Position numbers and translations under genes: made by a program. A model generated the notes under the pieces. It was given only the letters and a program-made list of their open reading frames with translations. It was not told the DNA's origin and searched no databases. A DNA stretch of 64,000 nt from Arthrobacter koreensis (GTDB lineage Bacteria; Actinomycetota; Actinomycetes; Actinomycetales; Micrococcaceae): the NCBI RefSeq assembly GCF_009193255.1, contig NZ_WACG01000001.1, positions 682,001 to 746,000 on the forward strand, written 5' to 3'. How positions within the stretch are numbered: the stretch's first letter is position 1; the number at the start of each line of letters is the position of its first letter. Shown one piece after another: positions 9,160-46,590 of the stretch.

Positions 9160-10257
9160 TTAAGACGCATTCCGGCGGCTTCGTGCTGCCTGCGCCAGCA
9201 CGGTCAGGACTCCCGCGGAAGTTTCCCAGTCCATGCACTTGTCCGTGATGCTCTGGCCGTAGACCAGCGGGCCCGGATTGGCGGAGTCATGCGCCTGGGC
9301 GCCTCCCACCAGGAAGCTCTCCAGCATGATTCCGGCCAGGATGCCGGCACCCTCCGTCCCCGATTCAAGCTGGGCAGCCAGTTCCAGCGCGACCTCCGCC
9401 TGGCGGTGGTGGTTCTTGCCGGAGTTCGCGTGGCTGGCATCCACGATCAGCCGCGGATTCAGCTCCCGCTCCGCCAGCGCCTGCGAGGCGGCAGCGACGT
9501 CGGCCGGTGAGTAGTTGGGACCGGCACTTCCGCCGCGCAGGATCAGGTGGGTGTCCGCGTTGCCGGCGGTTCGAACCATGGAGGCGCGGCCGGCGCCGTC
9601 GATTCCCAGGAAGGACTGCGGGGCAGCTGCCGCCGCACACGCGTCCAGGGCGATCTGAAGCGACCCGTCCGTGCCGTTCTTGAAGCCCACCGGCATTGAG
9701 AGCCCAGAAGCGAGCTGGCGGTGAATCTGGCTTTCCGTGGTCCGTGCGCCGATGGCACCCCAACTGACCAGGTCCGCGACGTACTGCGGGCTGATGGGCT
9801 CAAGGAACTCGGTGGCAACGGGCAGCCCCAGCTCGCCGGCAGCAATCAGGAACCTCCGGGCGGCGTACAGGCCGGCCTCGATGTCATGGCTGCCGTCCAG
9901 GTGCGGGTCATTGATCAGGCCCTTCCAGCCCACCGTTGTGCGCGGCTTCTCGAAGTAGGCCCGCAGCACAATGAGCAGGTCCTCACTGTGCTCCTCCGCC
10001 ACGGCGGCCAGCCGCCGGGCGTAGTCCAGGCCGGCGTCCGGATCGTGGATGGAGCAGGGTCCGACGACGACGAGCAGGCGGTCGTCAACGCCGTCGAGCA
10101 CTGCGCGGACAGCTTCGCGTCCCTGGCGCACGGTAGCCGCCAGCTCCGGCGTAAGCGGCAGTTCAGCCAGCAACTGCTCCGGCGCCGGCAGCGGACGGAA
10201 TTCGCGCACCCGCTGATCTGAGGTGGTTGTGGTGTGCTGTGTGGCGGTGAGGTTCAT
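9160..10257 (-). CDS. aroG: 3-deoxy-7-phosphoheptulonate synthase (DAHP synthase, class I)
   Basis: The 365-residue enzyme condenses phosphoenolpyruvate and erythrose 4-phosphate, the first step of the shikimate pathway. Class I motifs are clear: VVVGPCSIHDP, LRAYFEKPRTTVGWKGLINDP, SFLGIDGAG, TLILRGG-type GNADTHLILRGG, and VDASHANSGKNHHRQ with its metal-binding His. Class I enzymes are usually inhibited by an aromatic amino acid; the specificity is not assigned here. The ATG has only a weak ribosome site. Upstream lie a leader ORF with Trp, Tyr and Phe codons and several hairpins, suggesting control by aromatic amino-acid supply. Confidence 0.95.
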   Translation of the reverse strand: MNLTATQHTTTTSDQRVREFRPLPAPEQLLAELPLTPELAATVRQGREAVRAVLDGVDDRLLVVVGPCSIHDPDAGLDYARRLAAVAEEHSEDLLIVLRAYFEKPRTTVGWKGLINDPHLDGSHDIEAGLYAARRFLIAAGELGLPVATEFLEPISPQYVADLVSWGAIGARTTESQIHRQLASGLSMPVGFKNGTDGSLQIALDACAAAAAPQSFLGIDGAGRASMVRTAGNADTHLILRGGSAGPNYSPADVAAASQALAERELNPRLIVDASHANSGKNHHRQAEVALELAAQLESGTEGAGILAGIMLESFLVGGAQAHDSANPGPLVYGQSITDKCMDWETSAGVLTVLAQAARSRRNAS

Positions 10258-10282
10258 GGTCCCGTATCCGTTTGAGGGTGGA

Positions 10283-10356
10283 CCGGCGGGACTCGTTCTC
10301 CAGAACCCGCCGGATATGGCGAAGGACAGGGAATGATCCCTGTCCTGTTGGCTCTG
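10283..10356 (-). promoter_or_regulatory. Structured leader RNA / putative attenuator of aroG
   Basis: Reading the minus strand, CAGAGCCAAC (10356-10347) can pair perfectly with GTTGGCTCTG (10402-10393) inside the leader ORF. It is followed at once by a 10-bp perfect hairpin AGGACAGGGA/TCCCTGTCCT (10346-10323), then a second strong hairpin CCGGCGGG/CCCGCCGG (10313-10283). CAGAGCC can alternatively pair with GGTTCTG in the last hairpin, with one G-U pair. No T run follows either hairpin, so the mechanism (termination or translation control) is open. Confidence 0.6.
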
Positions 10357-10374
10357 AAGGTTGGCGTCAGCGTA

Positions 10375-10431
10375 TTATCGCGCGGGCTCCTCCAGAGCCA
10401 ACGAAAAATACGCATACCAACGGTTAGTCAT
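10375..10431 (-). CDS. Aromatic-rich leader peptide of aroG (18 aa)
   Basis: The ORF reads MTNRWYAYFSLALEEPAR and stops. Trp5, Tyr6, Tyr8 and Phe9 cover all three end products of the pathway opened by aroG. The stop is 117 nt before the aroG ATG, and the distal codons overlap a segment that pairs with downstream RNA. The ATG lies 7 nt after TACGGT (10444-10439), itself 17 bp after TTGCGG (10467-10462), so a leaderless transcript is plausible. This is the layout of ribosome-mediated attenuation. I recall a comparable leader gene (aroR) before a DAHP synthase gene in Corynebacterium glutamicum; that comparison is from memory. Confidence 0.72.
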   Translation of the reverse strand: MTNRWYAYFSLALEEPAR

Positions 10432-10438
10432 GGGTAAG

Positions 10439-10467
10439 ACCGTAGGCCGGTTCCGGAAGCACCGCAA
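10439..10467 (-). promoter_or_regulatory. Promoter of the aroG leader
   Basis: The -35 TTGCGG (10467-10462), 17-bp spacer and -10 TACGGT (10444-10439) end 7 nt before the leader-peptide ATG. Confidence 0.55.
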
Positions 10468-10477
10468 GTTCCCGTGT

Positions 10478-10496
10478 TCACAATCTTTCTTTGTGA
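10478..10496. promoter_or_regulatory. Inverted repeat between aroG leader and lactate dehydrogenase-like gene
   Basis: TCACAA-N7-TTGTGA is a perfect 6-bp inverted repeat. It sits just upstream of the aroG-leader -35 and upstream of a possible TAGGCT -10 (10520-10525) for the gene at 10565, so a bound protein could affect either. The half-site order is the reverse of a Crp site, so I do not assign it to Crp. Confidence 0.4.
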
Positions 10497-10564
10497 CGTG
10501 TGTCCCGCCGTTGACGGCGTAGGCTCGGGTGCCAAGAACAGCCAGCAGTGAAAGCGAGTTTTTG

Positions 10565-13179
<2,615 letters not shown>

Positions 13180-24820: not shown

Positions 24821-24880
24821 ATCGAGATGGCAGAAACTGCCCGTATGAGCGCTCATACGGGCAGTTTCTGCCATCTCGAT
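24821..24880. repeat. Perfect 60-bp palindrome, copy A of a dispersed element
   Basis: Two 30-bp arms are exact reverse complements with no spacer. The left arm begins ATCGAGATGGCAGAAACTGC and the centre is GAGC|GCTC. CCCC before and GGGG after extend the symmetry. A second copy lies at 46535-46590 and shares the arm core CAGAAACTGCCCGTAT. It sits between the MFS stop and the methyltransferase promoter. Confidence 0.9.
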
Positions 24881-46534: not shown

Positions 46535-46590
46535 CGAGATGACAGAAACTGCCCGTATCGAGCTCGATACGGGCAGTTTCTGTCATTTCG
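46535..46590. repeat. 56-bp palindrome, copy B of the dispersed element
   Basis: The arms CGAGATGACAGAAACTGCCC... and their reverse complement meet at GAG|CTC with one mismatch in 28 pairs. The flanking CCCC/GGGG matches copy A. It lies between the convergent ends of acs and ohr. Confidence 0.9.

Follow-up and report, generated by a model that had tools for sequence, protein, structure and literature searches.

A conserved aromatic leader ORF with alternating RNA helices, a candidate ribosome-mediated attenuator, precedes the class I DAHP synthase gene of Arthrobacter koreensis and its relatives

The window, i.e., the whole stretch of 64,000 nucleotides of Arthrobacter koreensis DNA that was analysed, carries on its minus strand aroG, a gene for a class I DAHP synthase (DAHPS), the enzyme at the entry to the shikimate pathway. 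Between its promoter and its start codon lie a short ORF with aromatic codons and a series of RNA segments that can pair in more than one way:

10439..10467, minus strand: promoter TTGCGG-17-TACGGT, read from the sequence, with the -10 ending 7 nt 5' of the leader ATG
10375..10431, minus strand: leader ORF MTNRWYAYFSLALEEPAR, 18 codons, ATG at 10431 and stop at 10377..10375, with Trp5, Tyr6, Tyr8 and Phe9
10389..10402, minus strand: segment A (leader codons 10-15), partner of B; 14 bp in the window, 97.5% of helix cells paired in the alignment
10347..10360, minus strand: segment B, partner of A or D, from the window pairing and the alignment of both states
10323..10346, minus strand: hairpin C, a 10-bp stem that fits both states; 93.3% of cells paired, 5 of 9 pairs changed on both sides
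10308..10321, minus strand: small hairpin C2 (CGCC/GGCG), belonging to the B:D state; 91.8% of cells paired, double-sided change in 3 of 4 pairs
10298..10313, minus strand: segment D, pairing through 10313..10306 with E and through 10307..10298 with B, from the window pairing and the alignment of both states
10283..10292, minus strand: segment E, partner of D or of the aroG start region F, from the window pairing, the alignment and the E:F complementarity
10259..10269, minus strand: segment F, the aroG ribosome-binding region, which E can cover, from the fold and complementarity
9160..10257, minus strand: aroG, class I DAHP synthase, the accessory isozyme (PF00793, E 1.6e-85; NF009395, E 3.1e-147)

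An earlier note on this DNA had described an 18-codon ORF with Trp, Tyr, Tyr and Phe codons and its own -35 and -10 elements, and both were recovered, the ORF at 10431..10375 of the minus strand and the promoter as TTGCGG-17-TACGGT at 10467..10439. This promoter was absent from a consensus promoter scan, which gave one site, inside the leader. Among related leaders, a T stands at -36 in 51 of 59 aligned upstream regions, and all 120 leaders of the strict pattern defined below (120/120) have TANNNT 5' of an in-frame start, with a gap of 6-8 nt in 115 of them, any in-frame ATG or GTG within 60 nt being accepted as the start. With 7 nt between the end of the -10 and the leader ATG, the leader mRNA probably lacks a 5' UTR (is leaderless), as judged from the position of the -10 only. 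A 20-residue peptide resembling the leaders of relatives had no match in Pfam or NCBIfam. Diverging from aroG at 10529-11800 on the plus strand is a gene for an FMN-dependent dehydrogenase (PF01070, E 9.9e-131); it reads away from aroG, so that its promoter and that of the leader share one short gap. The window genome contains one full-length element of this kind, and its class II DAHPS is encoded elsewhere (G000:C6:53587-54879).

For comparison, the family was sampled with 149 genomes, that of the window among them, and class I AroG was called at E<=1e-60. Class I AroG was present in 58 of them, and a leader of the form M..[RQ]WYA[YN]F lay upstream of the gene in all 58, while class II DAHPS was found in 149/149, so that the isozyme governed by the leader is an accessory one. 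The earlier note had made its proposal dependent on the leader ORF being kept in relatives, and had looked to conserved Trp, Tyr and Phe codons and covarying stems across the family as the comparison to make; the ORF is kept in every family genome with the gene, and both the codons and the covariation were found. The codons CGT TGG TAT GCG TAT TTT are nearly invariant as DNA in the alignment of leaders (A1), unlike the usage of five ORFs of the window, which prefer TAC (38/44) and TTC (56/61) to the TAT and TTT of the leader. In one leader (L009), a +1 insertion after Phe9 alters the tail of the peptide and keeps segment A, a hint in the sequence of selection there on the RNA and not on the peptide. 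When a sample of 297 genomes of the order was scanned with the pattern MGNTGGTAYGCNTAYTTY, it matched in 17, 14 within the family and three outside it; of the latter, one (locus L062 of genome G184) is a leader before class I aroG, and two (L060 and L061) were rejected as leaders, their matches lying inside long ORFs.

The pairings themselves were largely as the earlier note had drawn them. Its first pairing, a perfect 10-bp match of the 3' codons of the leader, is indeed present as a helix region, A:B, with 10360..10347 as the partner, but its length is 14 bp with one G-U pair included. The 10-bp hairpin after it (C, 10346..10323) was confirmed, as was the GC-rich hairpin just 5' of aroG, D:E, whose 8 bp (CCGGCGGG/CCCGCCGG) span 10313..10283. 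The alternative pairing of CAGAGCC with GGTTCTG, i.e., B:D, likewise forms and extends to 10 bp with two G-U pairs, and the lack of a T run also held, with 0 terminator-like sites in 10150..10700. To these features the present analysis adds the leaderless-looking ORF, the pairing of E with the aroG start region, and hairpin C2. The 210-nt leader has a fold of -89 kcal/mol (z -5.59, a depth reached by 0 of 200 shuffles), and the lowest-energy fold of the window's leader without a ribosome is the B:D state. In Rfam, at the gathering score, the only match in the window was a tRNA, with none in the leader, for which the best weak match had 16.7 bits of the 60 needed and lay on the opposite strand.

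Two sets of helices were compared in alignment A1, which holds 58 of the 59 leaders (57 family rows and L062; L058, an identical segment, was omitted). State I, consisting of A:B (14 bp), C (9 bp) and D:E (6 bp), has 94.8% of its cells paired, versus 88.9% in shuffles, and 97 cells with double-sided changes, versus 27.3 in shuffles, a value reached by 0 of 500; slid partners used as a control pair at 39.5 to 59.2%. State II, consisting of B:D (8 bp), C and C2 (4 bp), has 91.4% paired, versus 84.8%, with 89 double-sided cells, versus 26.7, again reached by 0 of 500 shuffles, and for both states the shuffles and counts, like the z-scores given below, ignore relatedness and count close relatives repeatedly. 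Since both states use B and D, they cannot coexist. A:B varies little (double-sided change in 1 of 14 pairs), and the covariation of state I comes mostly from C and D:E; D:E complementarity has z below -1 in 44 of the 59 family leaders. RNAalifold, unaided, returned A:B, C and a 3-bp hairpin in the leader codons. A further candidate, in which the control codons would pair with sequence 3' of the leader stop, was rejected, as it was 89.1% paired with no double-sided change and one side invariant. The leader observation is thus real and beyond chance; and that some ribosome-mediated attenuator lies before aroG we regard as very probable. The general claim of the earlier note, ribosome-mediated control at aroG, is accordingly upheld by the conserved leader ORF, the mutually exclusive helices and a DAHP synthase as the target.

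How a leader ribosome might choose between the states was simulated by placing a ribosome on the leader, with its leading edge 12 nt beyond the first nucleotide of the codon in the A site, and folding the RNA 3' of it. Over 59 leaders, the mean number of A:B pairs was 11.8 with Trp5 in the A site, 12.3 with Tyr6, 3.4 with Tyr8, 0.4 with Phe9 and 0 with the ribosome at the stop, and the corresponding means for B with downstream sequence were 0.7, 0.35, 5.6, 8.2 and 8.4; in the absence of a ribosome they were 9.3 and 2.4. Hairpin C was present in both simulated states. A ribosome that holds Trp5 or Tyr6 in its A site, and so stands 5' of A, is thus predicted to let A:B form and leave D to E, and a ribosome over A (Phe9 onward, stop included) is predicted to give B:D and leave E to F. 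The flip from A:B to B:D falls at the Phe codon or one before it, in means over 55 family leaders and 46 and 17 leaders of two other lineages (f22 and f38), in a set whose strict pattern requires the Phe 8 nt before GGCTC, so that the spacing is selected; a footprint 3 nt shorter or longer moves the flip by one codon. The strict pattern is found in 120 of 160 loci, and the 40 without it are 17 of f35, 15 of f22 (including L287), three of f38 (including L097), three of the family and two of f53.

These positions bear directly on the earlier proposal, in which a ribosome stalled at codons 5-9 blocked the first pairing. The blocking holds for Phe9 and partly for Tyr8, but not for Trp5 and Tyr6, where the A:B pairs are kept, and with such stalls leaving A:B in place, Trp, Tyr and Phe cannot all act together as that proposal had it. 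Its direction is also doubtful: the pairing of CAGAGCC with GGTTCTG forms as described, but it frees E, which is complementary to the aroG start, and for that reason the B:D state may be the OFF state. Termination of the leader ribosome is informative as well. Counted from the first base of the stop codon, the paired part of B begins 14-23 nt downstream in the family (0 of 55 at 12 or less), so a terminating ribosome leaves B free, unlike the coverage of strand 2 in trp-type attenuators; in f38, the distance is 9-14 nt (16 of 17 at 12 or less, a borderline case), and in f22 it is 9-38 nt (5 of 46 at 12 or less).

The pairing of E with the start region was scored against shuffled F, and z fell below -1 in 41 of the 59 family leaders, compared with 12/59 and 14/59 for two decoys inside aroG; E:F is weak in the other 18/59. 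In 43 of 59 leaders, E pairs better with the leader's own F than it does, averaged, with the F of other species (Wilcoxon p 1.3e-4), and z is below -1 in 12 of 17 leaders of f38 and in 25 of 37 of f22, the f22 scoring having covered 37 of 46 leaders. D:E in f38 is no better than shuffles, with z below -1 in 3 of 17. Opening energies gave a mixed picture: the cost of opening the SD is higher in the B:D state in 19 of 59 leaders and lower in 16, and with sequential folding it is higher in 22/59 and lower in 9/59 (Wilcoxon p 0.018), the window standing at -0.3. Within the window's genus (L002-L005), opening the start region is dearer in the B:D state, e.g., 6.4 vs 12.3 kcal/mol for the window's start region (L002). 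At equilibrium, the window RNA stalled at Trp5 keeps part of E:F rather than D:E. The notion that the SD is covered in the B:D state in every species is not borne out by the opening energies and was dropped; a weaker form was kept because the E:F complementarity passes its controls, and that complementarity points to a translational output.

From these strands a scheme can be assembled in which the helix sets come from comparison, the effects of the ribosome from simulation, and the outcome for expression by inference. With aromatic tRNAs charged, ribosomes would reach the stop, B:D and E:F would form, and little aroG would be translated; with Trp or Tyr tRNA in short supply, a ribosome would halt just before A, A:B and D:E would form, and the open start would allow aroG to be made. 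We give this direction, with a translational output, about an even chance. Weighing against it are the part of E:F kept at equilibrium, the weak E:F of 18/59 family leaders, the f38 values for D:E and for the terminating ribosome, and the effect of aroR in C. glutamicum, reported at transcription (PMC11802643); a single Phe located at the flip would, moreover, escape sensing, and the opening costs do not show the direction or output consistently.

The opposite direction, which is that of the earlier note and of classical attenuators, is the principal rival, and its appeal owes something to the closest known case, the aroR leader of Corynebacterium glutamicum, reportedly the subject of a study by Neshat et al. 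2014. In the portions of the accounts available to us, aroR precedes aroF, which encodes a class I DAHPS that is one of two isozymes, and has Phe-Tyr-Phe codons (PMC4046766, PMC11802643, PMC7356990); one of these portions describes it as Phe-responsive at transcription (PMC11802643), and another calls it translational (PMC7356990). Compared by such partial descriptions only, the present leader resembles aroR in being an ORF with aromatic codons before the class I DAHPS of a pair of isozymes, and differs from it in having W-Y-Y-F codons instead of Phe-Tyr-Phe. Stalling at Phe9, and to some extent at Tyr8, would here put the ribosome over A and give B:D, D:E would be prevented and aroG would be ON, and in unstalled leaders A:B and D:E would end transcription, either with Rho or without a U run. 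This direction draws support from the simulation, where Phe9 is the earliest position with A:B gone in the mean, from aroR, which is reported to raise transcription under limitation for Phe and not Tyr, as given in the part of the source available (PMC11802643), and from the spacing between E and the aroG start, which varies widely (12 to 57 nt among family leaders). Yet A:B survives stalls at Trp5 and Tyr6, no terminator-like T run is present, the terminating ribosome of the family leaves B free, and the E:F complementarity would close the start in the supposed ON state, all of which make this direction rather unlikely in our judgement.

How widely the element extends was examined in lineages outside the window's family (f22, f38, f53, f8 and f35) and in a class sample of 296 genomes, 58 of which have class I AroG. 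By script, aromatic leaders precede class I AroG in 17 of 20 loci of f38, 14 of 14 of f22 (in five of which the pairing taken as A:B was another one) and 1 of 2 of f53, but in 0/1 of f8 and 0/17 of f35; by eye, there were further ones in two more f38 loci, the other f53 locus and the f8 locus, and one f38 locus (L097) was masked. Another f22 set had 47 loci of established orientation, and 46 of them carry an ORF with three aromatic residues inside a span of six; L287 was the one without a leader, and L275 could not be oriented. The motifs differ among lineages (RWYWRF, RRYRYF, RAYWRF, YFWF, and, in small-genome members of f22, WRFYF or QRFYF), and the WRFYF leaders of the latter contain the Phe-Tyr-Phe of aroR, a combination that fits both directions since one Phe is upstream of the flip and one is at it. 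A covariance model (R1), built from A1 (57 family rows and L062) and so representing almost wholly one family, matches at E<=0.01 39 of 74 other-lineage loci, i.e., 0/17 of f35 and 39/57 of the others, in a test that took 74 of 102 such loci (L097 and 27 of L252-L279 being omitted). Among the small-genome f22 relatives with WRFYF, it matches L278 and L281 and not L280 (2/3). The f35 lineage has class I DAHPS with no aromatic leader by script or model in 17 of 17 loci (e.g., L082 and L089). Some f22 loci (L278, L280, L281 and others) have a U-rich tract after hairpin C.

Among named loci from a pattern scan, whose matches are not a census, R1 matches at least 64 of at least 80: 49 in Micrococcaceae genera, one filed as Sporosarcina and 14 others. 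The others, at least 14 in number, comprise six Glycomyces, three Phytoactinopolyspora, one Jiangella, two Luteimicrobium and two Streptomyces, and a class I DAHPS motif lies downstream in 17 of 18 loci checked. The contig filed as Sporosarcina beigongshangi (L127, 7798-7965) carries an Arthrobacter-type leader and class I aroG at 157 bits, and is probably contamination of that assembly. A broader picture, to which we give somewhat less than an even chance, would be of an unrecognised RNA switch in several Actinomycetes orders, in which a leaderless aromatic ORF and a chain of helices, A:B or B:D and then D:E or E:F, open or cover the start of an accessory class I DAHPS, thereby pooling information on aromatic supply with codon sets specific to each lineage.

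The same comparison informs two further rivals. In one, the way the leader is translated would govern transcription, either at hairpin C or through Rho acting in the leader, with D, E and F secondary; in its favour are the U-rich tract found after C in genus g21 and in several leaders from other lineages, and the small-genome f22 leader L280, which has A:B and C and no evident D. However, C is present in both states, so its pairing alone gives no regulation, the tract is weak in the window (TTCGCCATAT), and the window leader has no terminator-like site, which leaves this account quite improbable, even if the output may differ between lineages. A survey of hairpin tails over 445,945 bases was dominated by the leader element itself. 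That the peptide itself acts, e.g., as a small regulatory protein, would suit its strong conservation in the family, but is very improbable given the DNA-level conservation that also covers the pairing positions, the L009 insertion, which alters the tail and keeps A, and the changes of W and Y in other lineages.

The favoured scheme, with stalling that would open the aroG start, has partial counterparts elsewhere. Canestrari et al. 2020 are said to have described a stalled ribosome that itself holds an SD-covering structure open. The mycobacterial polycysteine leaderless short ORFs, in the portions of the sources available, sense an amino acid with a translational output (PMC13236596, PMC9094748); our leader ORF is likewise leaderless-looking, with amino-acid sensing and a translational output proposed for it, and differs from them in the amino acid and genes concerned and in the proposed chain of alternating helices. 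With the trp-type attenuators of actinobacteria, as the available part of their survey describes them, it has in common leader codons that specify the product amino acid, and hairpins that exclude one another, but those finish in a GC-rich hairpin with poly-U (PMC1262725), and no terminator-like T run was found here. Upstream of phenylalanine or tyrosine operons, the same part of that survey found no RNA structures to be conserved (PMC1262725), and the part available of a survey of S. lividans gives eight leader peptides, none for Phe or Tyr (PMC8079986). In a literature search confined to titles and the openings of abstracts, no DAHPS leader in actinobacteria was found besides that of C. glutamicum. 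Leader-peptide control is of a known kind, little described for a DAHP synthase gene, and here several aromatic codons would act as the sensor for an accessory isozyme. The element makes predictions codon by codon, by which limiting one of Trp, Tyr and Phe at a time should tell the two directions of the switch apart. As a covarying family absent from Rfam, it could be annotated at once, and it would be relevant to the engineering of aromatic production.

Elsewhere in the window are two long perfect palindromes, at 24821-24880 and 46539-46586, with stems of 26 and 22 bp and a common half-site, GRCAGAAACTGCCCGTAT, of which the genome has 31 copies that often form inverted pairs with 8 nt between them.
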